From Shinella curvata (GTDB lineage: Bacteria > Pseudomonadota > Alphaproteobacteria > Rhizobiales > Rhizobiaceae), in contig NZ_JALJCJ010000004.1 of NCBI RefSeq assembly GCF_022899935.1, positions 248,001 through 312,000 on the forward strand: a stretch of 64,000 nt of DNA, in the 5' to 3' direction. Position numbers and translations under genes: made by a program. The notes under the pieces are model-generated. The model searched no databases and was not told where the DNA came from. It saw only the letters and a program-made list of their open reading frames with translations. Positions 1 to 36,234 of the stretch are shown one piece after another (position 1 is the first letter of the stretch; each line of letters opens with the position of its first letter).

Positions 1-177
1 GAGGTTCGCCTTGGCGTCGAAATGATGGCGGATAAGCCCGTTGGACACGCCCGCCCGCGCGGCAACCGCGCGCACGGACGTACCCTGGATGCCGAGTTCG
101 GCTATGCATTCGAGCGTCGCCTCGATGAGGTCGCGCTGCTTCCCGCCAGGGGGCAAAACGTCGCCGGCCTCTGTCAT
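1..177 (-). CDS. TetR-family regulator, N-terminal part only
   Basis: The reading frame runs off the left edge, so only about 59 N-terminal residues are visible. They hold a TetR-type helix-turn-helix: a helix rich in E, A and L, then GTSVRAVAARAGVSNGLIRHH, of which VAARAGVSNGLIRHHF is the recognition part. BetI and other choline/amine-responsive TetR proteins look similar. Two in-frame ATGs exist, at 183 and 177. The AAGGAG at 187-192 is about 7 bases from 177 but only one base from 183, so I start at 177. The gene is divergent from the flavoenzyme at 299 and a large palindrome lies between them, so it probably represses itself and that operon. The ligand is unknown. Confidence 0.8.
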   Translation of the reverse strand, partial: MTEAGDVLPPGGKQRDLIEATLECIAELGIQGTSVRAVAARAGVSNGLIRHHFDAKANL

Positions 178-232
178 GTCCATACTCCTTGCCCGGAGGT
201 TTCCTACGCGCAAACATCCCGGATATCCAGAT

Positions 233-277
233 TTCGACTATACAGTCGCATAGTTGCTATGCAAGTGTATAGTCGAA
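233..277. promoter_or_regulatory. nested 45-bp palindrome, probable TetR operator
   Basis: Outer arms TTCGACTATACA (233-244) and TGTATAGTCGAA (266-277) are a perfect 12-bp inverted repeat. Inside them GCATAG (248-253) and CTATGC (257-262) form a second perfect dyad on the same centre, near 255. The element fills the middle of the divergent TetR/flavoenzyme gap. Binding by two TetR dimers is an inference from this geometry. Confidence 0.75.
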
Positions 278-298
278 TGAGACGCCGGGGGAGGAACC

Positions 299-2350
299 AT
301 GCGCGATCCACGTTACGATATCCTGTTCGAGCCGGTTCGGATCGGCCCGGTGACCACGCGCAATCGCTTCTACCAGGTGCCGCACTGTAGCGGCATGGGC
401 CACCGCTATCCCGAGGCGGACCTCTCTCTTCGGCGCATGAAAGCCGAGGGCGGCTGGGGCGTCGTCTCCACGCAGGAAACCGAAATCCACCCCTCCTCCG
501 ACATTTCGCCTTCCAACCAGCAGCGCATCTGGGACGATCACGATGTCGACCGGCTGAAGAAGTTGACAGAGGCTGTGCACGAGCATGGAAGCCTTGCCGC
601 GATCCAGCTGGTTCACAACGGCATCCACACCGCCAATCGGCTGACCCGTATCGCCCCCTATGGCCCTTCGGACATGGTGGTGGACGTCGAGGATCCTGTG
701 CAGGCGCGTGCCATGGACAAGGCAGATATCGCGGCGTTCCGGACATGGCACCGCGATGCGGCGCTCAGGGCGAAGCGGGCGGGTTTCGATATCGTCTATG
801 TCTATGCCGGGCACGACATGACGTTGCTCCAGCATTTCCTGCTCCAGCGGCACAATTCCCGCACCGATGAATACGGCGGCAGTTTCGAAAATCGCTTGCG
901 TCTGTTCCGCGAGGTTCTGGCCGATACACGCGATGCCGTCGGTGATCGCTGTGCCATCGCCGTGCGCTTCGCCGTCGAGGAACTGCTGGGGGCCGACGGC
1001 CTGCAGCATGACGGTGAGGGACGCGACGTTGTCGCGGCGCTGGCGGAAGAGCCGGACCTCTGGGATGTCAACCTTTCCAACTGGTCGAATGACAGCCAGA
1101 CCGCCCGTTTCTCGCAGGAAGGTTTCCAGGAAGCCTATACCGCCTTCGTCAAGACGGTGACGACGAAGCCCGTCGTCGGCGTCGGCCGCTATACGTCACC
1201 GGATGCGATGGTGCGGGCGATCCGCTCCGGCGTGCTCGACCTGGTCGGAGCCGCGCGTCCCTCCATCGCCGATCCTTTCCTGCCGAAGAAGATCGAGGAG
1301 GGCCGCATCGACGATATCCGGGAGTGCATCGGCTGCAACATCTGTACCGCCGGCGACAACACCGTCGTGCCGATACGCTGTACACAGAACCCGACCATTG
1401 GCGAGGAGGCTCGTAAGGGCTGGCATCCGGAGATCATTCCGTCGCTCGCAAAACCCGAAGCCGTGCTTATCATCGGCGGCGGGCCGACAGGGCTTGAGGC
1501 GGCGCGCGCCCTTGCCCAGCGCGGCGCGGACGTCACGGTCGCGGAGGCCGGTCGCGAATGGGGCGGCCGCGTCACAAAGGAGGCGAAACTACCGGGACTT
1601 GCGACCTGGGCGCGCGTGCGCGACTGGCGCATGGGCCAGCTGCGGCAGGCTCCGAATGTCGAGCTTTATCTCGATAGTCCCCTCACCGCCGAGGATGTGC
1701 TTTCCTACGGTATCCGGCATGTGGCGATCGCTACCGGAGCCCGCTGGCGCACCGACGGGGTCGGCCGCCTGCACCGCTCTGCCCTGCCCTTCCTGTCGGG
1801 CAATGCCGTTGTCGGTGTCGACGCGCTTCTCGAACGCGGAACGGCTGCTCTTTCAGGTAACGGTCCGGTCGTGATCTTCGATGACGACCGGTATTACATG
1901 GCAAGCGTGCTCGCGGAAATGATCGCGCTGTCGGGTCGCCGGGTGACCTTCGTCACGCCTGCGTCCATCGTCGCGCCATGGACGGATCACACGCTGGAAC
2001 AGCGCCGGGTACAGACCCGCCTGATCGAGCTCGGCATCGACATCGTGCTGCTGCATCAGCTCGGTGATTTCAGGCCGGATGTCCTGAGCGTCGAGTGCAT
2101 CTATTCCGGACGGCGGCGGGAAATCGACTGTTCCATCGTCGTGCCTGTAACGGCGCGCCTGCCGGTCGCCCGGCTCTGGCATGACCTGTCGGCTCGTGCG
2201 GAGGTCTGGACCGATCACGGCATCGAAACCGTGGAGCGCATTGGCGACTGTCTCGCCCCCGGTATCATCGCAGCCGCCAATTATGCAGGGCACTTCTATG
2301 CCCGAAAGCTGGCCAGTGCGCAAAACGAGGGCTGCGACGCCTATCGATGA
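299..2350 (+). CDS. trimethylamine-dehydrogenase-type iron-sulfur flavoenzyme (probable N-demethylase)
   Basis: A 683-residue protein with the TMADH/dimethylglycine demethylase DgcA architecture: an FMN TIM barrel (about 1-340), a 4Fe-4S motif and a C-terminal ADP/FAD Rossmann region (IIGGGPTGLEAARAL, near 390). The cluster cysteines are C343, C346, C349 and C361. C30 in YQVPHC sits where TMADH attaches FMN covalently. Y169, H172, W262 and D265 match the TMADH catalytic and aromatic residues as I recall them, but residue 60, a tyrosine in the TMADH amine bowl, is glutamate here. Family knowledge predicts oxidative N-demethylation of a methylated amine or betaine with electrons passed to an ETF-like acceptor. 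The exact substrate is unknown. It is probably the first gene of a TetR-controlled unit. Confidence 0.82.
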   Translation: MRDPRYDILFEPVRIGPVTTRNRFYQVPHCSGMGHRYPEADLSLRRMKAEGGWGVVSTQETEIHPSSDISPSNQQRIWDDHDVDRLKKLTEAVHEHGSLAAIQLVHNGIHTANRLTRIAPYGPSDMVVDVEDPVQARAMDKADIAAFRTWHRDAALRAKRAGFDIVYVYAGHDMTLLQHFLLQRHNSRTDEYGGSFENRLRLFREVLADTRDAVGDRCAIAVRFAVEELLGADGLQHDGEGRDVVAALAEEPDLWDVNLSNWSNDSQTARFSQEGFQEAYTAFVKTVTTKPVVGVGRYTSPDAMVRAIRSGVLDLVGAARPSIADPFLPKKIEEGRIDDIRECIGCNICTAGDNTVVPIRCTQNPTIGEEARKGWHPEIIPSLAKPEAVLIIGGGPTGLEAARALAQRGADVTVAEAGREWGGRVTKEAKLPGLATWARVRDWRMGQLRQAPNVELYLDSPLTAEDVLSYGIRHVAIATGARWRTDGVGRLHRSALPFLSGNAVVGVDALLERGTAALSGNGPVVIFDDDRYYMASVLAEMIALSGRRVTFVTPASIVAPWTDHTLEQRRVQTRLIELGIDIVLLHQLGDFRPDVLSVECIYSGRRREIDCSIVVPVTARLPVARLWHDLSARAEVWTDHGIETVERIGDCLAPGIIAAANYAGHFYARKLASAQNEGCDAYR

Positions 2351-2460
2351 GCGGCAAAAGAAGGTGCTTGACCCTTGCCAAGGCGATGTTGCTGGCGTTT
2401 GTTGCGCGCGGAACCGCAGCACGTCTTCGGCGCCGTTCGATGGTTTGACAGGATGATGGA

Positions 2461-4023
2461 ATGACGATGCTCGATACTGCGGCGCTCGACCGGGCGCTGA
2501 ACCGCCTTCCCTACCGTTTTCACGGACCGGGTGGCGTCGCGGGTGTCGTCAAGGATGGCAAGGTCGTGGCGCGTCGTGCCTGGGGCTTTTCGGACATGTA
2601 TCGTCGCCTGCCGATGACGGTGGAGACACGCCTGCCGATCTGCTCGATCTCCAAGCAATTCACCTGCGCCCTGTTGCTTGACCAGTTCGGTGATCCCGCC
2701 GCCTTGGACGACAGGGTCCGCGACTTCCTGCCCCTCTATCGCGACCGGCTGCCGACGGTTACGGAACTCTGCCACAACCAGTCAGGTCTGCGTGATTACT
2801 GGGCCTTGACCGTGCTGCAGGGTGCCTATCCCGAGAGCGAGTTCTGCCGCGAGTATGCCTTGCCGCTCATCGCTAGCGCCAAGACCGGGCATTTTCCGGC
2901 CGGTGCGCATTATTCTTACAGCAACGGTAATTTCCGCATTCTTGGCGAGCTGATCGAGCGCGGCACTGGCCGAGATCTTGCCGGCCTGTTGGCAGAACGT
3001 CTGTTTAGGCCCGCCGGCATGTCCACCGCCGTTCTGTCCCCAAACACGCGTGTGCCACCCGACGGCGTCATCGGTTATGAAGGCAATGACGATGTCGGCT
3101 TCCTTCCGGCGGATAACGGCATCTACTGGTTCGGTGATGCCGGTATCGCCGCTGCGCTCGACGACATGCTTGCCTGGGAGTGCTACATCGATGCGACGCG
3201 GGACGATCCCGATGGTCTCTACAATCGCCTCTCGGCCCCTGTCTTCTATGCTGACGGCGCGCCCGCGACCTACGCCTACGGTTTGCGTCAGGATGTTTAT
3301 CGCGGCTTGACGTTCACCGGGCATGGCGGCGGTCTGCGCGGCTTCGGTTCCTACCGCATGCATGTGGCGGCGGAGCGTCTGTCCGTGGTCGTGATGTTCA
3401 ACCACGGCACAAGTGCCTACAATGCCGCAACCATGCTCGTCGATGCCGCGCTCGGCCTGGGCAAAGCCGACGAAGCGCTCCCTCCGGCGAACTGGAATGG
3501 GCTGTGGCTGGATGAAGCGCAGGGGCTTGTCGTGCGCACCGTGGCGGACGCCGAAGGCGTGAAACTCCACTACGGCCCTTCCGCCGCGCGGGCGGTCGTT
3601 GCATCCGACGGCGCTGCTTACGGGCAGGATTTTTCGCTCCGCAAAGGGGATGAGCATCTGCTCATGCAGCGGCGGAGCGAAAATCTTACCGTCACCGCCC
3701 GTCGGATCGAACCGGTGGAATGGGCGGATGCGAAGCCAATCTCGGGGCGCTACTGGTCCGATGAACTGGAGGCCTTTCTGGAGATCGAGGCGCGCGACGG
3801 TGCGGCCTTCGCGGTTTTTGAAGGCACGTACGGCACAGGGCCGATGGAGCGCATGTATGCATTGGCCGAGGACATCTGGGTCGTCACCAGCCGCCGCGCG
3901 CTCGATGCAGCCGCCCCGGGTGACTGGACAGTGCTGATCCGGCGCGACGCTGCCGGCGCGGTAACGGGCCTTAGCGTCGGCTGCTGGCTGGCGCGGAACA
4001 TAGGCTATCGCCGTGTGATATAG
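2461..4023 (+). CDS. dap: D-stereospecific aminopeptidase (DAP family)
   Basis: A 520-residue serine peptidase of the class C beta-lactamase/penicillin-binding fold. The length and HNQSGLRDYW segment resemble the Ochrobactrum anthropi D-aminopeptidase. Catalytic motifs: S62-I-S-K65, Y153-S-N155 and H288-G-G. The C-terminal part (about 330-520) corresponds to the beta-barrel domains B and C of that family. The family releases N-terminal D-amino acids from peptides and amides. There is no signal peptide, so it is probably cytoplasmic and acts on imported D-aminoacyl amides or peptides. It follows the flavoenzyme by 110 bases. The start at 2461 follows an AGGATGATGGA region; an in-frame ATG at 2467 is an alternative. 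Confidence 0.82.
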   Translation: MTMLDTAALDRALNRLPYRFHGPGGVAGVVKDGKVVARRAWGFSDMYRRLPMTVETRLPICSISKQFTCALLLDQFGDPAALDDRVRDFLPLYRDRLPTVTELCHNQSGLRDYWALTVLQGAYPESEFCREYALPLIASAKTGHFPAGAHYSYSNGNFRILGELIERGTGRDLAGLLAERLFRPAGMSTAVLSPNTRVPPDGVIGYEGNDDVGFLPADNGIYWFGDAGIAAALDDMLAWECYIDATRDDPDGLYNRLSAPVFYADGAPATYAYGLRQDVYRGLTFTGHGGGLRGFGSYRMHVAAERLSVVVMFNHGTSAYNAATMLVDAALGLGKADEALPPANWNGLWLDEAQGLVVRTVADAEGVKLHYGPSAARAVVASDGAAYGQDFSLRKGDEHLLMQRRSENLTVTARRIEPVEWADAKPISGRYWSDELEAFLEIEARDGAAFAVFEGTYGTGPMERMYALAEDIWVVTSRRALDAAAPGDWTVLIRRDAAGAVTGLSVGCWLARNIGYRRVI

Positions 4024-4087
4024 CCCGATAGGCTGGTCGGGAAAAAATCTGCGTCAATGCGCATTTCGCGATTGCTAATCCCCGCTC

Positions 4088-4108
4088 CACTTAATATGTT
4101 GTTAAGTG
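4088..4108. promoter_or_regulatory. 7-7-7 inverted repeat upstream of the XRE-cupin gene
   Basis: CACTTAA (4088-4094) and TTAAGTG (4102-4108) are a perfect inverted repeat separated by seven bases. It ends 12 bases before the ATG at 4121 and overlaps the start of the Shine-Dalgarno GAGGAG. The AT-rich dyad against a GC-rich background fits an autoregulatory operator for the XRE-cupin protein. Confidence 0.55.
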
Positions 4109-4120
4109 AGGAGTGAGGCT

Positions 4121-4738
4121 ATGGATGACATCGCGGTAGCGACAAAGAATCAGGCCGTCATCGGCGAGAAGGTCAAGGCCTTCCGTGCGGCCCGACGCAT
4201 GTCGCTACGGGCGCTCGGCGATGCAACGGGCACGACCGCAAGCTTCCTCAGTCAGCTCGAGCGCGGTCTCAGCGGCGTCAATATCAGCACGCTGATGCGT
4301 ATCGCAGGCGCGCTCGGCATCAGCCTCACCGACCTTTTCGACGACGGCTCGCCGCCAGTCGGCCGGGTATTGCGCAAGGATGAGCGTCCGGCCCTACCGC
4401 CGGCGGAGGGTTATCGCAAGATGCTCCTGTCGCGGCGTCCGATCCGCGACATGGAGGTCTATATCGGCGAGTTCGATCCCGGTGGCTCGACGGGTGAGAA
4501 GCCCTATAGCCACGGGGATTCGCAGGAACTCTTCTTTGTTATCCGCGGCGAGGTGGAGCTTACCCTCGGCGAGGAGCGCCATGTGCTGTCCTCCGGCGAC
4601 AGCATCGAATATCCAAGCTCGGTTCCGCACAAGACCGTCAATATCGGCACGGAAACCGCTGAAGTCATCTGGATGATCGCGCCGCCGACCAGCGTCGCGG
4701 ATGATCTCGACAAATACCTGCCCCGGCCCGGCTCGTAG
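4121..4738 (+). CDS. XRE-family regulator with C-terminal cupin
   Basis: A 205-residue transcription factor. Residues about 15-70 are a lambda-repressor-like HTH (SLRALGDATGTTASFLSQLE) and about 115-190 a cupin_2 effector domain (metal-type SHGDSQELFFVIRGE and PHKTVNIG). PuuR and related polyamine or amino-acid regulators have this layout. I start at the ATG at 4121, which has GAGGAG seven bases upstream; a GTG at 4106 would give five extra residues. It sits between the D-aminopeptidase and the ABC importer and is the obvious candidate to sense the transported compound. Confidence 0.85.
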   Translation: MDDIAVATKNQAVIGEKVKAFRAARRMSLRALGDATGTTASFLSQLERGLSGVNISTLMRIAGALGISLTDLFDDGSPPVGRVLRKDERPALPPAEGYRKMLLSRRPIRDMEVYIGEFDPGGSTGEKPYSHGDSQELFFVIRGEVELTLGEERHVLSSGDSIEYPSSVPHKTVNIGTETAEVIWMIAPPTSVADDLDKYLPRPGS

Positions 4739-4783
4739 CCCCGGCAGGAACAACGTAACGCGAGCGCTACTGGGAGTATCAAC

Positions 4784-5854
4784 ATGAAGAAATTTGCGAG
4801 GGCTCTGGCCCTGACGATGACGTGCGCCCTGGCGTTGCCGGTATTCGCACAGGACAAGCCGGTCGCCGGCGAGGTCAAGGAAGGCTCGCTGAAGGGCAAG
4901 ACGCTGACCTTCGTCTCCTATGGCGGCATCTATCAGGACGGCCAGGTCGCCGCCCTCAAGGAATTCGTCGACAAATCAGGCGTGACGCTGCTCAATGACG
5001 GCCCGACCGAGATCGCCAAGCTGAAGGCGCAGGTCGATGCCGGTAACGTCACCTGGGACGTGGTCGATACCGCTGACCTGCCGCCCTATGTGCATTGCGG
5101 CACGCTCTTCCAGAAGCTCGACCTTTCCAAGCTTGACGTCTCGAAAATCCCGCCTGGCCAGGTCGGCGAATGCTCGGTTCCGGCGATGAACTACGGCGTC
5201 GTGCTGATGTACAAGAACGAGACCTATAAGGATAACCCGCCGAAGAACTGGGTCGATTTCTTCGACACGGAAAAGTTCCCCGGCTCGCGCGCCATCGATG
5301 GTTCGGGTGATCCGACCGGCGGCCTGATTGAACAGGCTTTCAAGGCGACGGGCGGCGATCCGAAGGCGATGACGCCTGACGATATCGAGAAGGGCATCCA
5401 GAAGCTGCGCGATCTCGGCCCGGATACAATCTATTGGAAGACCGGCGCGGAAAGCCAGCAGTTGGCTGAGTCCGGCGAGGCCGACATGATCATGATGTGG
5501 ACCGGCCGCGCCATGACCGCCGTGAAGAACGGTGCCGCCTACACGCCGGTCTGGCAGGACTGGCTGGTCGTGATGGACCAGATGACCATCCCGGTCGGCG
5601 TCAAGGATACGGATGCGGCCTATGCGCTGCTCAACGCCTATCTCGGCGCGAACGCCCAGGCTGTCCTGACCGAAAAGACCTCCTACACGCCGATCAACAC
5701 GGACGCCAAGCCGAAGGTCGACGATGCGACGGCAGCCTTCCTCACCTCGACGCCCGAGCGTAACGCGCAGGGCTATCAGCAGAACATTCCGTTCTGGGTG
5801 AAGAACTTCGATCTCGCCGCCGAGAAGTGGAACGCACTTCTCTCCGGCAACTGA
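4784..5854 (+). CDS. ABC importer A: periplasmic binding protein (PotD/PotF-like)
   Basis: A 356-residue solute-binding protein with a Sec signal peptide (MKKFARALALTMTCALALPV, cleavage likely after VFA). The mature N-terminus has KTLTFVSYGGIYQDG and the lobes are typical of spermidine/putrescine-type binding proteins. Family members bind polyamines, opines or quaternary amines. A strong hairpin follows it before the permease genes, which would give it higher expression than the membrane subunits. Ligand unassigned. Confidence 0.85.
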   Translation: MKKFARALALTMTCALALPVFAQDKPVAGEVKEGSLKGKTLTFVSYGGIYQDGQVAALKEFVDKSGVTLLNDGPTEIAKLKAQVDAGNVTWDVVDTADLPPYVHCGTLFQKLDLSKLDVSKIPPGQVGECSVPAMNYGVVLMYKNETYKDNPPKNWVDFFDTEKFPGSRAIDGSGDPTGGLIEQAFKATGGDPKAMTPDDIEKGIQKLRDLGPDTIYWKTGAESQQLAESGEADMIMMWTGRAMTAVKNGAAYTPVWQDWLVVMDQMTIPVGVKDTDAAYALLNAYLGANAQAVLTEKTSYTPINTDAKPKVDDATAAFLTSTPERNAQGYQQNIPFWVKNFDLAAEKWNALLSGN

Positions 5855-5869
5855 GCAGCTGAGCAATCG

Positions 5870-5893
5870 CAGGCCCGGTTTCGGCCGGGCCTG
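5870..5893 (+). promoter_or_regulatory. intercistronic hairpin after binding-protein gene A
   Basis: CAGGCCCGG (5870-5878) and CCGGGCCTG (5885-5893) form a perfect 9-bp GC-rich stem with a six-base loop. No T-run follows. It lies 16 bases after the binding-protein stop codon, so it is better read as an mRNA-stabilising or attenuating hairpin than a full terminator. Confidence 0.6.
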
Positions 5894-5914
5894 TCTCGAA
5901 AACGGGAGATGCCC

Positions 5915-6805
5915 ATGACCGCGACACATGATGAAGGCTTGAGGGTTGCCGCTGTTCGATCGGCCTTTTTGTCCCGTTTCCGACCGCGCGGGGCGGTTTG
6001 GCTTGCCGCGCCCGCCGTGCTGGTGCTGCTCGTTGTGCTCGCCTATCCGCTCGGCATCGTCGTGTGGCGCTCCTTCACCGATCCCACCGTCGGCGTCGAC
6101 AATTACGTCTGGTTCTTCCAATCCGCGGTGAACCGCACGGTGCTGCAACGCACCTTCGTCGTCGCCGCCTGGGTTACGCTCGTCTCCCTCATCTGCGCCT
6201 ATCCTTACGCCTACGCCATGACCATCGTCGGCAAGAACGTCCGGCTGGCGCTCATCCTCTGCGTGCTCGTACCCTTCTGGCTGAGCGGCGTTGTGCGCAC
6301 CCTCGCCTGGGTGATCCTCCTGCAGGATTCCGGCGTCATCAATTCCATCCTGCGCGGCCTCGGCCTGTCGCCGGTCAAGCTGATCCGCACCCTGCCGGGC
6401 GTCGTCATCGGCATGACGCAGGTGCTGCTGCCGTTCATGATCCTGCCGATCTATTCCGTGATGAAGGGCATCGATACACGCCTGTTGCAGGCCGCCCGCA
6501 GCCTCGGCGCGAAACCCTGGAAGGCTTTCCTGCAGATCTACGTGCCGCTGTCGCTGCCCGGCGTCTATGCCGGTGCGATCATCGTCTTCATCCTGTCGCT
6601 CGGCTTCTACATCACCCCGGCTTTGCTCGGTGGTCCGCGCAGCATTCTCTTGTCCTCGCTGGTGCAGAACCAGGTGTTGAGCCTGCTCAACTGGGGCCGT
6701 GGTGGCGCCATGGGCGTGGTGCTGCTGGTCGCGACCTTCGTGCTTCTCGCCTTGGCCGCTCCGCTGATGCGCCAGAAACACGCATCCTCGCGCAGGGAGG
6801 CTTAG
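5915..6805 (+). CDS. ABC importer A: permease (PotB-like)
   Basis: A 296-residue inner-membrane permease of the binding-protein-dependent family with six predicted membrane helices. The EAA loop that docks the ATPase reads QAARSLGAKPWKAF. It opens with a short cytoplasmic tail and a first helix near LAAPAVLVLLVVLAYPL. The ATG at 5915 is six bases after GGGAG, whereas the ATG at 5909 touches the Shine-Dalgarno sequence. Followed three bases later by the second permease. Confidence 0.85.
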   Translation: MTATHDEGLRVAAVRSAFLSRFRPRGAVWLAAPAVLVLLVVLAYPLGIVVWRSFTDPTVGVDNYVWFFQSAVNRTVLQRTFVVAAWVTLVSLICAYPYAYAMTIVGKNVRLALILCVLVPFWLSGVVRTLAWVILLQDSGVINSILRGLGLSPVKLIRTLPGVVIGMTQVLLPFMILPIYSVMKGIDTRLLQAARSLGAKPWKAFLQIYVPLSLPGVYAGAIIVFILSLGFYITPALLGGPRSILLSSLVQNQVLSLLNWGRGGAMGVVLLVATFVLLALAAPLMRQKHASSRREA

Positions 6806-6808
6806 GCT

Positions 6809-7594
6809 ATGCCGTCGTTCTCCCGCATTTTCCTCGGTCTGTTCTGCCTGCTCGTCGCGATCCTGTTGCTTGCGCCGACGCTGGTCGTGATCCCGATGTC
6901 GTTCAACGGCAACAAGTCCCTCGCCTTCCCGCCGGTCGGTTTCAGCTGGCAATGGTATGAAAACTTCTTCAGCAACCCGGACTGGACGACGAGCTTCTCC
7001 AATTCGCTGATCGTCGCCCTCATCGTCGCGGTGGTGGCGACCGTCATCGGCACCCTCGCCGCCTTCGGCGTCACCCGTGCTGCGGCGCGCACCGGTGGCC
7101 TGCTGCGCGCCCTACTCATCACGCCGATGGTCGTGCCGGGCGTGGTTTTGGCGATCGGCATCTATGCTGTCTATCTCGATACGCATCTCGTCGGCACTGT
7201 CACCGGTTTCGTGCTGGCCCACACGATGCTCGCCATCCCCTTCGTGCTGATCGCCGTGCAGGCGAGCCTCGAAGTCTTCGACCGGCGGCTGGAAACGGCG
7301 GCGTCGAGCCTCGGTGCGGGCCGCCTGACGGTATTCCGCACGGTGACGCTGCCGCTGATCCTGCCCGGCGTTCTCTCCGGCGCGCTCTTCGCCTTCATCA
7401 CCTCGTTCGACGAGATCATCGTCGCGCTGTTCATCACCAGCCCCTATCTCAAGACGCTGCCGGTACAGATCTATTCGTCCATCACGCGGGATGCCGATCC
7501 GACCGTCGCGGCCGTCGGCACGCTGCTCTTCATCGCCACGTCGCTCATCATCATCGCCGGCCTGCTCCTGGGCATGCGCCGCGGAAGGACCTGA
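6809..7594 (+). CDS. ABC importer A: permease (PotC-like)
   Basis: A 261-residue inner-membrane permease, six predicted helices, EAA loop TAASSLGAGRLTVF. It is the partner of the preceding permease; the GGGAGG Shine-Dalgarno lies at the end of that gene. The order binding protein-permease-permease-ATPase and the tight spacing indicate one transcript. Confidence 0.85.
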   Translation: MPSFSRIFLGLFCLLVAILLLAPTLVVIPMSFNGNKSLAFPPVGFSWQWYENFFSNPDWTTSFSNSLIVALIVAVVATVIGTLAAFGVTRAAARTGGLLRALLITPMVVPGVVLAIGIYAVYLDTHLVGTVTGFVLAHTMLAIPFVLIAVQASLEVFDRRLETAASSLGAGRLTVFRTVTLPLILPGVLSGALFAFITSFDEIIVALFITSPYLKTLPVQIYSSITRDADPTVAAVGTLLFIATSLIIIAGLLLGMRRGRT

Positions 7595-7596
7595 CC

Positions 7597-8712
7597 ATGC
7601 ACGCTCCCCAACGTTCAGCCGGCGCCGCGATCGAAATCCGGAAGGCCTCCAAACGCTACGGCGCCTTCACGGCCCTCAACGATATCGACCTGCATATCCG
7701 CCCCGGCGAATTCATGACGCTGCTCGGCCCCTCCGGCTCGGGCAAGACGACGACGCTGAACCTGATCGCCGGCTTTACCGACATCAGTTCCGGCACGCTG
7801 GAGATCGGCGGCAAGAGCGTGACCGGCCTGCCTTCGCACAAGCGCAATATCGGCGTCGTCTTCCAGCACTACGCGCTTTTCCCGCACATGACGGTCGGCA
7901 AGAACGTCGCCTATCCGTTGGCGCTGCGCGGCATCAAGGGCGACGACCGCGAAAAACGGGTCAAGCGCGCGCTCGACATGGTGAAGATGGCCGATTTCGC
8001 CCATCGCTATCCGAACGAACTCTCGGGTGGCCAGCAGCAGCGCGTGGCGCTCGCTCGCGCGCTCGTCTTCGATCCGCCGCTGCTTTTGATGGACGAACCG
8101 CTCGGTGCGCTCGATAAGAAGCTGCGTGAATGGTTGCAGCTCGAGATCAAGCGTATCCATCGGGAACTCGGCACCACCTTCGTCTATGTCACGCACGATC
8201 AGGAGGAAGCGCTCGTCCTCTCCGACCGTATCGCCGTCTTCAACGGCGGCCGCATCGAGCAGATCGGCACGGGCCGTGAACTCTACGACAGTCCGGCAAC
8301 GCTTTTCGTTGGCCGTTTCATCGGCGAATCCACGGTGTTGCGTGGATCGGCTGAGGTTTCGGGTGATGAAACGGTCATGACGATCGGCGAACAGAAGGTT
8401 GTCGCCAATCGTCGCCTTGCCGGCGATGCCCGCCCGGTGATCCTGCTGCGGCCCGAGCGCGTCGCCCTGAAGCGTCCCGGCGCGGATGTCGTTCCCGGCG
8501 AAAACCGCCTCACGGGCACGATTGCGGAAGCGATCTATCTCGGTTCCGGCTCGAAATACGAGGTGCGGCTGGCGGATGGCACGGTGGCCGTGGTGCGCAG
8601 CCCGCTCGGCGCCGCCGATTTCGGCATTGGCGATACGGTTGATATCGCCTTCCTCCCCTCCGATCTCATCCTTCTCCCCGACGACGCCAGCGCCGACGTG
8701 ACGCTGACCTGA
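7597..8712 (+). CDS. ABC importer A: ATPase (PotA-like)
   Basis: A 371-residue ATP-binding subunit. Walker A GPSGSGKTTT, Q-loop near VVFQHYALFPH, signature LSGGQQQR, Walker B LLLMDEPLGALD and H-loop VTHDQEEAL are all intact. The C-terminal part (about 285-355) is a TOBE domain, usual for PotA/MalK-type subunits. Two bases separate it from the permease gene. It powers import through the two permeases. Confidence 0.9.
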   Translation: MHAPQRSAGAAIEIRKASKRYGAFTALNDIDLHIRPGEFMTLLGPSGSGKTTTLNLIAGFTDISSGTLEIGGKSVTGLPSHKRNIGVVFQHYALFPHMTVGKNVAYPLALRGIKGDDREKRVKRALDMVKMADFAHRYPNELSGGQQQRVALARALVFDPPLLLMDEPLGALDKKLREWLQLEIKRIHRELGTTFVYVTHDQEEALVLSDRIAVFNGGRIEQIGTGRELYDSPATLFVGRFIGESTVLRGSAEVSGDETVMTIGEQKVVANRRLAGDARPVILLRPERVALKRPGADVVPGENRLTGTIAEAIYLGSGSKYEVRLADGTVAVVRSPLGAADFGIGDTVDIAFLPSDLILLPDDASADVTLT

Positions 8713-8729
8713 ACCCGAAAGCCCCCGCC

Positions 8730-10115
8730 ATGGACGTCAAGACCAACGGTAACATCTCCTTCTGGTATGCCGATATCGGCGGCGTGCCGCAGAAGCGCCC
8801 TGCCCTGCCCGGCGATCGTGAAGCCGATGTTTGCATCATCGGTGCCGGCTATACCGGCCTCTGGACGGCCTATTATCTGAAGAAGGCCGATCCCTCGCTC
8901 AACATCGTCATGGTCGAGCGCGAATTCGCCGGCTTCGGCGGCTCGGGCCGCAATGGCGGCTGGCTGTCGGGCGGCTTCAGCTGGTCGCGTGAAAAATATC
9001 TCAAGACCTCCAGCCGTGGCGCCGTCGTCGATATGCAGCGCGCGATGGCCGGCACCGTCGACGAGGTGATCCGCGTGACGGAGGCCGAAGGCATCGACGC
9101 GGATATCCTGCGCGTCGACAACATCACCTTCGCCACCAACAAGCCGCAGCTCGAGCGCGCCCGCGAGGAATACCAGTTCTATCTCGATTGGGAGATGCCG
9201 TCGGAACGCATCGAAATGCTGTCCGCCGAGGCGGCGGCCAAACGCATCCGCGTTGCCAATGTGCTGGGTGCCTTCGTCATCCGCGACATGGCACGCGTCC
9301 AGCCGGCCAAGCTGGTGCGCGGCCTTGCGAAAGTGGTGGAAGGGCTCGGCGTCTCGATCTTCGAGGGCACAGCCGTCACCCGCTTCGAGAAGGGCCGCGT
9401 CGAGACCGATCGCGGCACGGTGCGCGCGCCCGTCATCATCCGCGCCACCGAAGGCTTTACCGCCGGCCTGCCCGGCCACGAGCGCACCTGGCTGCCGCTG
9501 AACAGCGCGCAGATCGTCACCGAACCGGTGCCGGAGGCGTTATGGAAGGAGATCGGCTGGGAAGGCCATGAACTGCTCGGCGATGCCGCGCATGCCTATT
9601 GTTATGCCCAGCGTACCCGCGAGGGCCGCATCACCATGGGCGGGCGCGGCGTGCCCTACCGCTTCGGTTCGGCGACGGACGTCAATGGCCGCACACAACA
9701 GGCAACCATCGATGCGCTCCACACTATTCTCACGCGCCTGCTTCCACAGACGAAATCGCTGAAGATCGATCATGCCTGGTGCGGCGTGCTCGGCGTGCCG
9801 CGCGACTGGTGCACGACGGCGGGCTTTGATCGCGACAGCGGCATCGGCTGGGCGGGCGGCTATGTCGGTCTCGGCGTTTCCAGCACGAACCTCGCCGGCC
9901 GCACGCTGGCCGATCTCGTGCTTAATCGCGATACCGAACTGACCGGCCTGCCCTGGGTCAATCGCACCGTGCGCAAATGGGAGCCGGAACCGTTCCGCTG
10001 GCTCGGCGTGCATTCCATGTACCAGCTTTATCGCATGGCGGACGAACGCGAATTCGCCGGCCTCGACCATACATCCAAACTCGCCGGCCTTGCAGACAGC
10101 ATTACCGGTCACTGA
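8730..10115 (+). CDS. FAD-dependent oxidoreductase (DAO family, PuuB-like)
   Basis: A 461-residue DAO-family flavoprotein. The FAD-binding GxGxxG is IIGAGYTGLWTAYYL near residue 36, followed by the acidic strand end VMVERE and GGSGRNGGW; the C-terminal dinucleotide segment is near GWAGGYVGLGVSSTNLAGR. The family oxidises secondary or primary amines (gamma-glutamylputrescine oxidase, sarcosine/glycine oxidase types). It follows importer A by 17 bases, so it probably oxidises the imported amine or its demethylated product. The substrate cannot be read from sequence. Confidence 0.8.
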   Translation: MDVKTNGNISFWYADIGGVPQKRPALPGDREADVCIIGAGYTGLWTAYYLKKADPSLNIVMVEREFAGFGGSGRNGGWLSGGFSWSREKYLKTSSRGAVVDMQRAMAGTVDEVIRVTEAEGIDADILRVDNITFATNKPQLERAREEYQFYLDWEMPSERIEMLSAEAAAKRIRVANVLGAFVIRDMARVQPAKLVRGLAKVVEGLGVSIFEGTAVTRFEKGRVETDRGTVRAPVIIRATEGFTAGLPGHERTWLPLNSAQIVTEPVPEALWKEIGWEGHELLGDAAHAYCYAQRTREGRITMGGRGVPYRFGSATDVNGRTQQATIDALHTILTRLLPQTKSLKIDHAWCGVLGVPRDWCTTAGFDRDSGIGWAGGYVGLGVSSTNLAGRTLADLVLNRDTELTGLPWVNRTVRKWEPEPFRWLGVHSMYQLYRMADEREFAGLDHTSKLAGLADSITGH

Positions 10116-10136
10116 CCCCATTCAAAGGATATTTCC

Positions 10137-10496
10137 ATGATCAGTTTTGAGAATTTCGGCGACCTCCTGAAGCTTGACATCGGCGCCTTCGCGGCAAAGC
10201 CGACCTGTATCGAGGGCGACCAGAAGGAAGCGACGCTGGTGCTCTGGACCAGCGCCAACGCGAAGATGGAAACCGGCATCTGGGAATGCACGCCCGGCCG
10301 CTTCGCCGCCGACCGCACGCAGAACGCCGAGGTCTGCCATTTGCTCACCGGTCGCGTGACGTTGCACAACAGCGACGGCACCTCGCAGGAGATCAGTGCC
10401 GGCGAAATGTTCGCGCTGCCGCTCGGCTGGCGCGGCGAATGGACGATCCACGAGCAGACCCGCAAGATCTATACTTTTCTCGCGAACGATGTCTGA
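10137..10496 (+). CDS. small cupin protein (DUF861 type)
   Basis: A 119-residue single-domain cupin of the EutQ/ureidoglycine aminohydrolase-like group: EVCHLLTGRVTLHNSDG, then a glycine turn and PLGWRGEWTIHEQTRKIYTF. It has a good Shine-Dalgarno (AAAGGA, about eight bases upstream). Such cupins often follow DAO-type oxidases in proteobacterial operons; their biochemical role is generally unknown. Here it lies between the oxidase and the second iron-sulfur flavoenzyme. Confidence 0.75.
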   Translation: MISFENFGDLLKLDIGAFAAKPTCIEGDQKEATLVLWTSANAKMETGIWECTPGRFAADRTQNAEVCHLLTGRVTLHNSDGTSQEISAGEMFALPLGWRGEWTIHEQTRKIYTFLANDV

Positions 10497-10528
10497 CGCT
10501 GCCTGACAGGTTTGGGAGGAGGATCCCG

Positions 10529-12517
10529 ATGACGCAAGCAGAACCTTCCGATGGCGCGATGGTGCCATCAGCGTTTCCACATGTGTTCCAGCCGCTGAAA
10601 ATCCGCGGCGTTGTACTGAAGAACCGCATCATGTCGTCCGGTCACGACACGACGCTGCCGACGGACGGCCTCGTCAACGAAGCCGTGCTTGCCTATCACG
10701 CCGCCCGTGCCAAGGGCGGCGTGGGCCTCATCGTCAGCCAGGTGGCGGGCGTTCATGAGACGGCGCGCTACACTTCGCACATGCTGATGGCAACAGAGGA
10801 CGACTGTATCGACGGCTATCGCCGTCTCGCGGAGCTCTGTCATGCCGAGGACTGCGTGCTGTTCTCGCAGCTCTTCCATCCCGGCCGCGAGATCATGGAG
10901 GGCGGTGACGGTCTTCTGACCGTCGCCTATGCCCCCTCCGTCTCGCCGAACGAACGTTTCCGAGTCATGCCGCGCGCGCTCGACAAACGCATGATTGACG
11001 AGATCGTCGCCGGTTATGCGTCGGCGGCCGGCCGCATGCATGCGGCGGGTGTCGATGGCGCGGAGTTCGTCGCCAGCCACGGTTACCTGCCGGCGCAGTT
11101 CTTCAATCCGCGCGTCAATCGTCGTGAGGATGACTATGGCGGCTCGCTGGAAAACCGGCTGCGTTTTGCCGAGGAGGCGCTTGCCGCCATGCGGGCCGCA
11201 ACGTCGGAGGATTTCGTCATCGGCATGCGCATCAGCGCCGGTGAGCGTGACGAAGAGGGGCTGGCCAACGACGAAGCATTGGAAATCTGTCGCCGGCTGG
11301 AGCCGCTGCTGGACTATGTGAGCATCACGACGGGTACGTCCGCCTCGCTCGGTGGCGCCGTGCATATCGTCCCCCCTATGGCCTATCGTGCCGCCTATCT
11401 GGCAGGAGATGCGGCGCGCTTCCGCAAGACGCTTGGCATTCCCGTCTTCGTGACCGGTCGCATCAACCAGCCGCAGGAGGCCGAGGCCGTCATTGCCGCC
11501 GGCTCTGCGGATGTCTGCGGCATGACACGGGCGATGATCTGCGATCCTGAAATGCCCGGCAAGGCGCAGGAGGGGCGTATGGACGACATCCGCGCCTGTA
11601 TAGCCTGCAACCAGGCCTGCATCGGCCATTTCCATCGCGGCGTGCCGATCTCCTGCATTCAGCATCCCGAAACCGGCCGCGAACTGAAATTTGGCACGCT
11701 CGAACCGGCCGCCAAGCCGAAATCCGTTATGGTGGTCGGCGGCGGGCCGGCCGGACTGAAGGCGGCCTCCGTCGCCGCCGCGCGGGGTCACAAGGTCACG
11801 CTCTATGAAGCCGCGAACCAGCTGGGCGGGCAGGCGCAGCTTGCCCAGCTTCTGCCACGGCGTTCGGAATTCGGTGGCATCGTCACCAACCTCTCCAGAG
11901 AGGTTGAGCTTGCCAATGTGCGCGTGCAGCGCGGCGTTCATGTCGACAGGGCCTTGGTCGAGGCGGAACGGCCGGATGCCGTCATCCTCGCCACCGGCGC
12001 GAAACCCTATCGGCCTGAGCTGCCGATCGACGACAGCGTTCAGGTCGTCGATGCCTGGCAGGTGTTGCGCAAGGAGGTGAAGACGGGCAGCCGTGTCGTC
12101 GTTGTCGACTGGCGCTGCGACTGGATCGGCCCCGGCATTGCCGAACGTCTCGTCGCCGAGGGCTGCAGCGTCGATCTCGCCGTCAATGGCACGCATCCCG
12201 GTGAGCTTCTGCCGCTCTATGTGCGCGACAACATCGCTGCCGAACTGCACCGCATTGGCGTGCGGGTGACGCCTTATGCGCGGCTCTACGGCTGTGACAG
12301 CGGTACGGTCTATATGCAGCATACGACGAGCGACCAGCCGATCCTCTTCGAGGATGTGGACACGCTGGTTCTCTGTCTCGGACACGCGCCGGTCGATGAT
12401 CTTTCGAGCATCCTGCACGATCTCGTGCCGGAAGTGCATGTCATCGGCGACAGTCTCGCGCCGCGTACGGCGGAAGAGGCCGTTTATGAAGGTCTGAAGG
12501 TGGCAGCGAAACTGTGA
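10529..12517 (+). CDS. second TMADH/2,4-dienoyl-CoA reductase-type flavoenzyme (N-methylproline demethylase-like)
   Basis: A 662-residue protein with an OYE-like FMN barrel, a 4Fe-4S site C357-x2-C360-x3-C364-x11-C376 and a C-terminal Rossmann domain (VVGGGPAGLKAASVA). Unlike the enzyme at 299 it lacks the covalent-FMN cysteine (MSSGHDTT in that position) and uses the CxxCxxxC spacing of the dienoyl-CoA reductase/stachydrine demethylase branch. The ATG at 10529 follows GGGAGGAGGATCCCG; the frame is open far upstream, but that overlaps the cupin gene. The operon suggests demethylation or ring oxidation of the same N-methylated substrate. It converges with the small gene at 12524. Confidence 0.8.
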   Translation: MTQAEPSDGAMVPSAFPHVFQPLKIRGVVLKNRIMSSGHDTTLPTDGLVNEAVLAYHAARAKGGVGLIVSQVAGVHETARYTSHMLMATEDDCIDGYRRLAELCHAEDCVLFSQLFHPGREIMEGGDGLLTVAYAPSVSPNERFRVMPRALDKRMIDEIVAGYASAAGRMHAAGVDGAEFVASHGYLPAQFFNPRVNRREDDYGGSLENRLRFAEEALAAMRAATSEDFVIGMRISAGERDEEGLANDEALEICRRLEPLLDYVSITTGTSASLGGAVHIVPPMAYRAAYLAGDAARFRKTLGIPVFVTGRINQPQEAEAVIAAGSADVCGMTRAMICDPEMPGKAQEGRMDDIRACIACNQACIGHFHRGVPISCIQHPETGRELKFGTLEPAAKPKSVMVVGGGPAGLKAASVAAARGHKVTLYEAANQLGGQAQLAQLLPRRSEFGGIVTNLSREVELANVRVQRGVHVDRALVEAERPDAVILATGAKPYRPELPIDDSVQVVDAWQVLRKEVKTGSRVVVVDWRCDWIGPGIAERLVAEGCSVDLAVNGTHPGELLPLYVRDNIAAELHRIGVRVTPYARLYGCDSGTVYMQHTTSDQPILFEDVDTLVLCLGHAPVDDLSSILHDLVPEVHVIGDSLAPRTAEEAVYEGLKVAAKL

Positions 12518-13608: not shown

Positions 13609-13717
13609 GCAAGACAAGCCTATCACATAAGAGCCGTGATTAGCGGCCGGACAGAGGACAGCCGGCGGTTTGGGGCAGAGGACGCTCGGGGCACGCCGGT
13701 TCACAAACGGGGAACCG

Positions 13718-14815
13718 ATGACTGACACCCGAACGACCGCAGCCCATGGCGGCGCCATAGGCCTGCACGGCATCAAGAAATGGTTCGGCACCTTCCAGGC
13801 CGTCGACAATGTGTCGCTGGATATCCGCTCGAACGAATTCTTCACTCTTCTCGGCCCTTCGGGCTGCGGCAAGACCACACTCCTTCGCATGATCGCCGGC
13901 TTCGAGTTGCCGACCGAAGGTCAGGTCCTCCTCGACGGCGTGGATATTTCCCGCCTCCTGCCGAACCAGCGGCCGGTCAACACCGTCTTCCAGAACTACG
14001 CGCTTTTCCCGCATCTGACGGTGGCCGAAAACATCGGTTTCGGCCTCAAGATGCTCGGCAAGCCGAAGTCGGAGATCGACAGCGTCGTCAAGGACATGTT
14101 GAAGCTCGTTCATCTCGACGGGCGCGGCAACAATCCGGTCACGCAGCTTTCCGGCGGCCAGCAGCAGCGTGTGGCGCTCGCCCGCGCGCTTGCGCCGCGG
14201 CCCAAGGTTCTCCTGCTCGACGAGCCGCTGTCGGCGCTCGATCTCAAGCTGCGCAAATCCATGCAGATGGAGCTGAAGCGCCTCCAGCTCGAAACCGGCA
14301 TCACCTTCGTCTTCGTCACGCACGACCAGGAAGAAGCGCTGACCATGTCCGACCGTATCGCCGTTATGTCGACGGGTACGGTTCGTCAGGTCGGCTCACC
14401 CTGGGATATCTACGATCGCCCGGCCGAACGCTTCGTCGCCGACTTCATCGGCGAGACCAACTTCCTCGAGGCGGAGGTCATCTCGGTCTCCGGAGAGAAG
14501 GCCCGTGTTCGCCTGTCCTCCGGCGCTGAAATCAATGCGACCTATCCGGAAGGCATCACGCCGAAAGGCAAGGTGACGATCGTCGTGCGCCCGGAACATG
14601 CGCGTCTCGGTTCGTCCGGTTCGGGCATGCTGGAGGGTGTGCTCGACGATATCGTGTATCTCGGCACGGACAACCATTTCCACGTCAAGGTCGATGGCGG
14701 CAGCACCTTCATCGTACGCCAGCAGAATGCCAAGAGCGGTCATTGCGGCTTCTCCGAGCAGGAGCGCGTCAGCATCGCCATCAATGACGACGTCGCCCAG
14801 ATCTTGAGGGATTAG
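13718..14815 (+). CDS. ABC importer B: ATPase (PotA-like)
   Basis: A 365-residue ABC ATPase: Walker [11 protein letters not shown], signature LSGGQQQR, Walker [13 protein letters not shown]-loop VTHDQEEAL, and a C-terminal TOBE domain. The ATG at 13718 follows GGGGAACC; upstream in-frame codons have no ribosome site. It is first of a potA-B-C-D ordered operon, the same order as the E. coli spermidine system, and is divergent from the GntR gene. Confidence 0.9.
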
Positions 14816-14819
14816 CCAT

Positions 14820-15743
14820 ATGGTCAGCCCTCAGGACGTCAGCGAACAGCGGCAAAAGAAAGAAATCCGGGATCGCTGGTTTCTCAGCGCTCCCGCACTC
14901 ATCCTCATCCTGGCCGCGAGTGTCGGCCCGCTCGTCATCGTATTGCTCTACTCCTTCCTCGCGCCCGGAAACTACGGCGATGTGAAATGGGAGTTTTCGA
15001 CGGAGGGCTGGTTCAACGTTCTCTTCAGCCGCGATATCTTCGACGATACCGTATCACTCGCGGATGCCCATTTTCTGATCTTCTGGCGGAGCGTCAAGCT
15101 TGCCTTCGCGACGACGATCTTCTGCCTGATCTTCGGTTTCCCGACGGCCTATTTCATCGCGACGCGTGCGCCGCATAATCGTTCGCTCTGGCTGTTCCTG
15201 ATCACCATTCCCTTCTGGACGAACATGCTCATCCGCACCTTCGCCATCCAGGAAGTGATCCGCTCGGAAGGCATCATCAACACGCTGCTGTTGAAGATCG
15301 GCATCATCTCCGCACCGATCCAGATGATGTTCACCGACTTCGCCATTATGCTGGGCATGACCTATGTCTTCCTGCCGCTGATGGTGCTGCCGCTCTATGC
15401 CAGTCTCGAAAAGCTGGATTTCCGTCTGGTCGAGGCGGGTTACGATCTCTATGCCTCGCGTTTCGGCGTACTCTGGCGGATCGTCATTCCGCTGGTGAAG
15501 CCCGGCATCATCGCCGGCTCCATCCTGGTCTTCGTGCCGGCGCTGTCGTCCTATGTGGTGCCGCGCGTTCTGGGCGGCGGCAAGAACCTGATGGTCGGCA
15601 ACCTGATCGAGCTGCAATTCGGTCAGGGGCGAAACTGGCCGCTCGGTGCCGCACTGTCCGTCACGCTCGTGATCATCGTGCTTTTCGCGATGCTCTATTA
15701 TGTCCGTAATGCATCGAAGTCCGGAGGCAGCGCCCATGGCTAA
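14820..15743 (+). CDS. ABC importer B: permease (PotB-like)
   Basis: A 307-residue membrane protein with six predicted helices and EAA loop VEAGYDLYASRFGVLWRI. The DLYAS variant of the EAA motif is characteristic of true PotB/PotH proteins. It starts four bases after the ATPase gene, and its last eight bases overlap the next permease gene, indicating coupled translation. Confidence 0.88.
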   Translation: MVSPQDVSEQRQKKEIRDRWFLSAPALILILAASVGPLVIVLLYSFLAPGNYGDVKWEFSTEGWFNVLFSRDIFDDTVSLADAHFLIFWRSVKLAFATTIFCLIFGFPTAYFIATRAPHNRSLWLFLITIPFWTNMLIRTFAIQEVIRSEGIINTLLLKIGIISAPIQMMFTDFAIMLGMTYVFLPLMVLPLYASLEKLDFRLVEAGYDLYASRFGVLWRIVIPLVKPGIIAGSILVFVPALSSYVVPRVLGGGKNLMVGNLIELQFGQGRNWPLGAALSVTLVIIVLFAMLYYVRNASKSGGSAHG

Positions 15744-16548
15744 ATCCTTCTCGATCAAGCGCCAGCCGGGCTTCGCCACCATTGCGATGTTCTGCTTCTT
15801 CCTTCTCTACCTGCCGATTGCGACCCTCGTCGTCTATTCGTTCAATTCCGGCATGTCGATCGCCACCTGGGAGGGCTTTTCGTTCCGATGGTTCGAAAGC
15901 GCCTGGAACAACCAGCAGGTCGTGGAAGCCTCCTGGCGTTCCCTGAAGATTGCGGCCGTCGCTGCGATCATCGCAACGGCCTGCGCGACGCTGGCCGCTA
16001 TCGCCACGACGCGCACGGGACCCTATCGCGGCCTGACGTTCAAATATTCCGTCATCAATATGCCGCTTCTGGTGCCTGAAATCGTCACGGCCGTGGCGTT
16101 GCTGATCCTCTTCTCGCGCGTCAAAGTGTGGACGGGTTATTCAGGCCTCGGCTACCTGATCGTCGCGCATTCGGCGTTCTGCGTTCCGTTCGCTTATATG
16201 CCGATCAGGGCTCGTCTCGAGAGCATGGACCTCTCTCTAGAAAAAGCGGCGGCCGACCTCTACGCCTCCTCGTTCCAGACTTTCCGCTATGTCACGCTGC
16301 CGTTGCTGTGGCCTGGCATTCTCGCCGGTCTTATGCTCGCCTTCGTCATTTCGCTCGACGATGTCGTCATTACGGAATTTGTGAAATCCGGCGGACAGGA
16401 CACGCTGCCGACCTATATGCTCGGCCAGTTGCGCCGCGTCGTGACACCGGAGATGAACGCCATATCGACAGTCTTTCTTGTGCTGTCGCTTGCGATCGTC
16501 ACCCTCTTCTTCTTCCTGAGCCGTGAGCCTCAGAAGAACAACGAATAG
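15736..16548 (+). CDS. ABC importer B: permease (PotC-like)
   Basis: A 270-residue PotC/PotI-type permease with EAA loop [17 protein letters not shown]. The ATG at 15736 (MAKSFS) is preceded by GGAGG inside the upstream gene; an in-frame codon at 15700 lacks such a site. It overlaps the previous gene by eight bases and is followed 16 bases later by the binding-protein gene. Confidence 0.88.
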
Positions 16549-16564
16549 AAAAGGAGAACAGCTG

Positions 16565-25115: not shown

Positions 25116-25149
25116 TGGTTCTCCGCTCGGCGCGTTTGGTTCAAGGCAC

Positions 25150-25184
25150 TCGGCCGCCAGCATAGCCTTTTCGCTGGCGGCCGA
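25150..25184 (-). promoter_or_regulatory. intercistronic hairpin after binding-protein gene C
   Basis: TCGGCCGCCAGC (25150-25161) and GCTGGCGGCCGA (25173-25184) make a perfect 12-bp stem with an 11-base loop. It lies between the binding-protein and ATPase genes on their sense (minus) strand, with no T-run. It probably raises binding-protein mRNA relative to the membrane subunits. Confidence 0.6.
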
Positions 25185-25216
25185 TCGAAGGCTGCAGACG
25201 TTTGATCGGGCTCTTA

Positions 25217-26305: not shown

Positions 26306-26373
26306 CGTGGTCTTTCTCCTGTTGGGCCGACCGGTTCATCCGGCCGGAGCGTTCCCGTTGTTGTTATTCTACG

Positions 26374-36047: not shown

Positions 36048-36063
36048 GGTTGGTGCGGATGGG

Positions 36064-36093
36064 TGGATCCTCGGGTCAAGCCCGAGGATGACG
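36064..36093 (+). repeat. 30-bp repeat, copy 1 (inverted pair)
   Basis: Begins TGGATCCTCGGGTC and ends CCCGAGGATGACG. It is itself a palindrome (ATCCTCGGG/CCCGAGGAT with a five-base loop). Its exact reverse complement occurs at 36173-36202. This is the well-known rhizobial intergenic TCATCCTCGGGCTTGACCC element. Confidence 0.8.
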
Positions 36094-36202: not shown

Positions 36203-36234
36203 CGCTCCCGGCACTCACGTTTAAGGATTGCCTC

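Follow-up and report, generated by a model that had tools for sequence, protein, structure and literature searches.

In the Shinella curvata genome G000 (6.07 Mb), positions 248001-312000 of contig C14 form a stretch of 64,000 nucleotides (the window), whose left end carries a row of co-directional genes. Within this row lies a seven-gene core (4088-10496), collinear across relatives, that encodes an XRE-cupin regulator, a solute-binding protein (SBP), two permeases and the ATPase of an ATP-binding cassette (ABC) importer, a DAO-fold oxidase and a small cupin. We estimate at roughly 55% the probability that the row consists of two regulatory units side by side, the second of which (unit B, 4088-12517) is an XRE-cupin-repressed cassette for the uptake and oxidation of a compound of the gamma-aminobutyric acid (GABA) class. 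A preliminary description of this DNA had seen in all ten genes a possibly undescribed catabolic system with a dedicated importer. The named genes are indeed at the places given, on the same strand and mostly with small gaps; the catabolic set with its importer holds for the widely conserved core and does not hold for the ten genes as one pathway. Narrow searches of open PubMed Central papers found no description of the core, which agrees with the suggestion of novelty. It is a widespread and seemingly unstudied uptake-and-oxidation module, probably for a small, GABA-like nitrogen compound, and just a few related soil bacteria have further amine-degrading enzymes attached at its ends.

In unit B, the substrate or its product would bind the cupin sensor, upon which the repressor would leave a single operator. 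The Pot-type importer would take up a small compound with an amino and a carboxylate group (GABA or 5-aminovalerate class), the flavin oxidase would oxidize its C-N bond, and the resulting semialdehyde or imine would pass to an aldehyde dehydrogenase encoded elsewhere, with the small cupin possibly aiding the pathway. The old yellow enzyme (OYE)-type protein at the 3′ end of the unit may have been captured from a module that had an XRE-cupin-like regulator of its own. Unit A (1-4023) would comprise a histamine dehydrogenase (HDH)-like amine dehydrogenase, a divergent TetR gene and a D-aminopeptidase, which stand here in few close relatives only. Gene families, a palindrome, conservation of the core and the occurrence of the last gene in two contexts were read from the sequence, and from it we infer the two transcripts, the substrate class, the direction of regulation, the order of reactions and the capture. 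If the ligand is of the GABA class, the cassette would provide an oxidase-based entry alongside the usual transaminase route. An unlikely ten-gene pathway is thereby recast as testable pieces, and a cassette found in two phyla comes with a candidate operator, one oxidase and a ligand class that can be predicted.

The seven-gene core and its palindrome

The core is collinear in Shinella, Rhizobium and Mesorhizobium, and also in Mycolicibacterium and Nonomuraea. We compared 61 whole genomes: the window's own, 20 of its genus, 16 others of the family and 24 others of the order. The full core was detected by DNA match in 16 of them, with the genes confirmed by tblastn, although the DNA query may miss more diverged cores in this set. 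When the whole window was searched as DNA against plasmids, 58 records gave matches, none of them covering more than 80% of the query, and the best 16 matches begin at 4041-4088 and stop near 10474 or 12500. Five annotated plasmid records (Rhizobium ACO-34A, R. daejeonense, Pararhizobium qamdonense and two Shinella; two records each from Shinella and Rhizobium and one from Pararhizobium) carry the core without the first two genes, at 84-87% DNA identity. These were evaluated over fetched stretches of 24-26 kb and rechecked by tblastn, because two of them have unannotated gaps upstream.

To cover greater distances, one genome per species was scanned for the oxidase, and the best 80 of 588 confirmed relatives were studied with up to 10 kb on each side (both flanks complete in 58 of the 80). 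Using tblastn with ten window proteins, we found the order regulator, SBP, permease, permease, ATPase, oxidase at 13 of these loci (L077, L078, L080, L081, L082, L085, L086, L087, L092, L093, L112, L114 and L142), with the cupin next after the oxidase in 12. One more locus, L154, has the core set with no XRE gene detected by tblastn, and at the remaining 66 the oxidase is present but the set is incomplete. Three of the 13 belong to Actinomycetota (L112 and L114, from mycobacteria, and L142), and L154 is from another actinobacterium. The order is thus common to two phyla.

Between the genes for the D-aminopeptidase and the XRE-cupin regulator is the palindrome CACTTAA-N7-TTAAGTG, which is kept where the sequence farther upstream diverges. 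It is the sole match in the window at up to three mismatches, with 0.27 expected. When at most one mismatch was allowed, each of the 16 full-core genomes had exactly one site, without mismatch, and sites occurred in 3 of the other 45 genomes (one exact, two with one mismatch). A reversed-pattern control matched in 12 of the 61 genomes, one of which has the full core. Exact arms with varying loops were detected at 7 of the 13 distant core loci (L077, L078, L080, L081, L082, L085 and L093; the first two belong also to the 61-genome set). At about 5.4 kb of L142, CACTTAACAACCTGTTCAGTG precedes the Nonomuraea XRE gene and is close to the rhizobial palindrome.

A regulator with an XRE helix-turn-helix and a cupin domain beside metabolic genes, a palindrome next to the regulator gene and few sites per genome are all found here, and the core is probably a further example of the XRE-cupin local catabolic units, a known type. 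We rejected a regulon acting in trans because every full-core genome has a single copy of the palindrome, located ahead of the XRE gene; copies of the first and last genes elsewhere thus have no exact or one-mismatch site. In Pseudomonas aeruginosa, the XRE-cupin protein PA4987 represses the SBP gene PA4985 and the oxidoreductase gene PA4986, and PA0535 represses pauB1 (PMC7901475, in excerpt). The core resembles these pairs in having a putative XRE-cupin repressor gene beside an SBP_bac_8 and/or oxidoreductase gene, probably under local regulation, and its palindrome resembles the palindromic sites of those P. aeruginosa XRE-cupin factors with determined motifs (same excerpt). Unlike the P. 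aeruginosa units, it brings together, in one collinear unit, the genes of a full ABC importer with those for a DAO-fold oxidase and a Cupin_3 protein.

The architecture is likely to be that of two units, with the second starting within the gap after the D-aminopeptidase gene. The gap between the TetR gene and the first gene has a separate palindrome, imperfect in the window and with 19-bp perfect arms in G015, and this gene pair looks like a separate divergent unit. Promoter and terminator scans gave counts under the shuffled means (1 vs 2.7 and 8 vs 9.4) and were not used as support. For the XRE-cupin gene, ATG 4121 is the probable start in place of GTG 4106, because the gene in annotated relatives is 618 nt long and GTG 4106 lies inside the palindrome.

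Substrate class and competing readings

The solved structures closest to the window SBP are the GABA-binding protein Atu4243 (170.4 bits) and two GABA-sensor constructs, followed by the ABC binding protein 4i1d and then by MotA and the agropine binder. Scores for spermidine/putrescine binders do not exceed 65 bits. In Atu4243, W200, R203 and D226 contact the ligand. Trp239, Arg242 and Asp265 of the window SBP align with these three residues, a likeness to Atu4243 (4eq7/4euo) and PA0222 that goes with membership of the same SBP family. Unlike those proteins, the window SBP is encoded next to a flavin oxidase gene, and it is distant from them (170 bits). When the core-type SBPs were aligned, Trp and Arg were present in 18 of 18 and Asp in 17 of 18. 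At the Arg position, the other three Pot-type SBPs in the window carry Ala, Val and Ala; in polyamine binders this position is occupied by an acidic or small residue (PotF D247). The conserved residues suggest a substrate with both an amine and a carboxylate, for example GABA or 5-aminovalerate. For P. aeruginosa SBPs of the same Pfam family, spermidine/putrescine had been the predicted ligands; the ligands bound were GABA or 5-aminovalerate (PMC6829864 and PMC11113362, in excerpt), and one of these proteins, PA4985, favors these two ligands despite such a prediction (PMC11113362, in excerpt).

The oxidase structure was predicted with a mean pLDDT of 87.9. Its fold is closest to glycine oxidase, then to sarcosine oxidase, amino-acid deaminases and proline dehydrogenase, with 12-21% identity in the 50 best matches, and its PDB-sequence search was weak (best 44.9 bits). 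In the small cupin, alignment by eye to the classical cupin metal-ligand motif shows that Glu65 alone is kept among the ligand positions. The His ligands are absent, which makes a classical metal site doubtful. On Roseovarius and Pseudosulfitobacter plasmids (L072 and L073), a 47-50% relative of this cupin is encoded in a row of genes alongside a Pot-type importer, an FAD oxidoreductase, a GMC oxidoreductase and an enolase-family gene.

A bolder form of the proposal would make the core a transaminase-independent, flavin-oxidative route for omega-amino acids (GABA class or N-substituted), carried as a seven-gene transferable cassette in Rhizobiales and Actinomycetota, with the DUF861-type cupin as partner of the oxidase, for example acting on an imine or aminal product. 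We think it unlikely that all of this is correct.

Several observations weigh against an XRE-cupin-repressed cassette for a GABA-class compound. Among the distant core loci, L086 and L087 have another palindrome, L112 and L114 have a third, L142 has a near match and L092 has neither. No terminator-like site was found in the 97-nt gap between the two units, so read-through is possible. The SBP of L154 is without the Asp and aligns weakly, and PA4985 bound ethylenediamine too, and spermidine weakly (PMC11113362, in excerpt). The fold matches of the oxidase do not distinguish amino acids from amines. Finally, 3 of the 5 aldehyde dehydrogenases scored near the oxidase are of the aminobutyraldehyde-dehydrogenase type, passing NF010000 (cut-off 615) in L112 (741.5), L154 (693.1) and L143 (675.9), which indicates a diamine rather than an amino acid; four loci were scored by profile, two of which, L143 and L067, lack a core importer next to the oxidase.

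This last result belongs to the reading of the core as a diamine or polyamine cassette, which would import a putrescine-like compound and oxidize it to an aminoaldehyde for a dehydrogenase and an aminotransferase encoded elsewhere. We regard it as a lesser but serious possibility. The PauB oxidases of P. aeruginosa are under XRE-cupin control (PMC7901475, in excerpt), and class-III aminotransferases were identified in L112 and L143, as expected of a diamine pathway. In 8 of the best 80 oxidase loci there are aldehyde dehydrogenases that fall into one cluster; the clustering used a simple gene caller that misses or misplaces genes, and otherwise only families confirmed by tblastn or profile were used. 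The transporter and regulator models matched best are also those of Pot and PuuR, with every score under its cut-off. What argues against a diamine is the Arg kept throughout the core-type SBPs, together with the binding of GABA or 5-aminovalerate by the P. aeruginosa proteins predicted as polyamine binders. Moreover, the oxidase does not have the setting of a PuuB or PauB enzyme: neither gamma-glutamylpolyamine synthetase nor PuuC/PuuD was found in the window core or in the five plasmid cores.

It is quite unlikely that the core handles an opine, an Amadori compound or another N-substituted amino acid through mannopine/agropine-type uptake and oxidative C-N cleavage. MotA and the agropine-binding protein do follow the GABA binders and 4i1d among the SBP relatives, and iminodiacetate oxidase (rank 30) and a flavin opine dehydrogenase (rank 33) are among the structures matched by the predicted oxidase fold, but the two binders score under those for GABA and the core has no partner gene for opine cleavage.

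Genes on either side of the core

By its family assignment, the first enzyme is an amine dehydrogenase of the HDH family. It had been described as similar to trimethylamine dehydrogenase (TMADH), and is closer to histamine dehydrogenase (763.5 bits vs 532 bits for TMADH). The aromatic bowl of TMADH consists of Y60, W264 and W355. At these positions the window protein has Glu60, Trp262 and, opposite W355, a gap beside Asp353; with one of three bowl residues kept, we rejected a TMADH-type demethylase. Shared with histamine dehydrogenases (6de6, 3k30) are Cys30, the active-site residues Tyr169, His172 and Trp262, Asp353 and the 4Fe-4S motif CxxCxxxC...C. The family residues to which Tyr169, His172, Trp262 and Asp353 correspond are Tyr171, His174, Trp263 and Asp354. 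For the Asp of the catalytic triad, window Asp265 aligns opposite N. simplex Asp270, and Asn264 opposite Rhizobium Asp265. Unlike the Rhizobium HDH, whose pocket has Gln60, Phe72, Glu74 and Phe176 (PMC10180351, in excerpt), the first enzyme has Glu60, Ser72, Gln74 and Met174. The 6-hydroxypseudooxynicotine oxidase Pno is another relative (PMC5500553, in excerpt). The divergent TetR protein has 217 amino acids when read in the genome, with its start at about 213 on the minus strand.

The D-aminopeptidase has the features of DAP, with a score over the NF009622 cut-off, the DAP_B domain, S62xxK and Y153xN, and also H288GG. It matches DAP (PDB 1ei5) over its full length at 510 bits with both DAP domains; what differs here is the position of its gene between those of an amine dehydrogenase and an importer cassette.

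Conservation of the neighborhood beyond close relatives, seen for the core from Rhizobiales to Actinomycetota, does not extend to these two genes. The first gene adjoins the core in 3 of the 61 genomes (G000, G014 and G015; the G014 and G015 copies have 92-93% identity), and the D-aminopeptidase gene lies between them in two only (G000 and G014). In G015 the first gene directly abuts the core, and a different contig carries a D-aminopeptidase gene (82%). In G036, G005, G003, G020, G002, G017 and G007, first-gene relatives at 68-71% sit elsewhere. In the best 80 oxidase loci, within the flanks available, nothing matched the D-aminopeptidase, and the first gene had no match over its full length; remote matches to the latter occur in L131 (30%, at the place of an OYE relative of 32%) and L100 (25% over 350 amino acids). 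On two Shinella plasmids (L061 and L062), first-gene relatives of 68-71% have transhydrogenase and "penicillin-binding protein 2" genes as neighbors, and in S. meliloti (L076) one lies beside genes for Ldh and for alcohol and succinate-semialdehyde dehydrogenases.

It is very improbable that the ten genes make up a single operon for degrading the substrate originally proposed, in which an N-methyl amine is combined with a D-aminoacyl or amide bond; we found no support for such a compound. In favor of one operon, the genes are co-directional with small gaps and their full order recurs in G014. Against it stand the rarity of the first two genes beside the core, their lack of full-length matches at the distant loci, the presence of one palindrome ahead of the first gene and a separate one ahead of the core, and the TMADH bowl reduced to one residue.

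The last gene encodes a FadH/OYE-type flavoenzyme and starts at ATG 10529 (10286 in the mechanical open reading frame). It resembles TIGR03997 and 2,4-dienoyl-CoA reductase in domain order and Fe-S motif. Unlike members of TIGR03997, the mycofactocin OYE_2 family, it scores 582.8 bits against an equivalog cut-off of 793.15. It was detected at E-values of at most 1e-150 in 14 of the 61 genomes, all of the window's genus. In six of them it follows the cupin (G000, G014, G015, G008, G001 and G012), and in eight it stands beside a divergent XRE-cupin-like gene with 30-34% identity to the core regulator; this pair is just upstream of the core in G018, G004, G010 and G011 and elsewhere in G003, G007, G017 and G020. 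The two contexts correspond to two groups of identity to the window gene, 89-100% and 81-84%. As the last gene adjoins the core in 10 of the 14 genomes, in two arrangements, a functional tie is favored. We infer that it was captured by the core operon, and the loss of its own regulator fits this. It would suggest a way in which islands grow on these replicons, with an enzyme falling under the operator of a neighbor and losing its own regulator.

We also considered whether the last gene is part of a second ABC set (13.7-17.6 kb), and rejected this on G008, G001 and G012, where the gene follows the core and no ATPase or permease of that set occurs in the fetched stretch. Counter to the rejection, G014 and G015 have the second ABC set adjoining the last gene, as in the window, and another Pot-type ATPase (42%) lies beside it in G003 and G020. 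Outside the 80 oxidase loci, a group of genes on a Rhodococcus plasmid comprises one of OYE type (56%) and others for an MFS transporter, for an oxidase (46%) and for a cupin (27-28%), together with a gene like that for succinate-semialdehyde dehydrogenase, under the model cut-off.

Coordinates and neighboring loci

Families were assigned via NCBIfam, Pfam and PDB-sequence searches. The ten genes are all on the plus strand, with successive gaps of 110, 97, 45, 54, 3, 2, 17, 21 and about 30 nt.

Table 1. Genes and palindromes at the left end of the window, in window coordinates.
Feature	Position	Strand	Basis or remark
TetR-family regulator, 5′ part	1..213	-	Family by eye; continues left of the window
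Imperfect palindrome, possible TetR operator	235..275		In the gap between TetR gene and first gene
HDH-family Fe-S flavoprotein, 683 aa	299..2350	+	Profile and PDB-sequence searches
D-aminopeptidase DAP, S12-type	2461..4023	+	NF009622 684.9 bits (cut-off 443)
Operator-like palindrome CACTTAA-N7-TTAAGTG	4088..4108		Ends 12 nt before the XRE-cupin ATG
XRE-cupin regulator, core gene 1	4121..4738	+	Best NCBIfam PuuR, 47.1 bits (cut-off 211 not reached)
SBP_bac_8 solute-binding protein, core gene 2	4784..5854	+	W239-T-G-R242 ... D265
PotB-type ABC permease, core gene 3	5909..6805	+	NCBIfam/Pfam
PotC-type ABC permease, core gene 4	6809..7594	+	NCBIfam/Pfam
PotA-type ABC ATPase, core gene 5	7597..8712	+	NCBIfam/Pfam
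DAO-fold FAD oxidoreductase, 461 aa, core gene 6	8730..10115	+	Profile searches, predicted fold
Small Cupin_3/DUF861 protein, 119 aa, core gene 7	10137..10496	+	Pfam
FadH/OYE-type FMN and 4Fe-4S flavoenzyme	10529..12517	+	TIGR03997 582.8 (cut-off 793.15 not reached)

Two further Pot-type ABC sets were identified at 13670-17599 and 34971-38971 (ATPases and one SBP by profile, the rest by similarity or by eye). Counting the core and a set at 22-26 kb, the first 39 kb of the window contain four. The set at 22-26 kb belongs to a minus-strand locus (22436-27423) in which the importer (ATPase by Pfam, other subunits by eye) lies beside an agmatinase-family ureohydrolase (TIGR01230 196, cut-off 174.3), possibly for the use of a guanidino compound.

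Farther right, a gabT gene (NF005692 858.1, cut-off 724) is followed by a succinate-semialdehyde dehydrogenase gene (TIGR01780 730.5, cut-off 646.35) at 44712-47566. The pair is divergent from a gene at 43648-44565 (minus strand) for a MerR/XRE-like regulator with a cupin-like end, recognized by eye, for which NCBIfam gave no match. At 52.5-52.7 kb the window contains ctRNA_p42d and an S-element, features also seen in repABC replicons.

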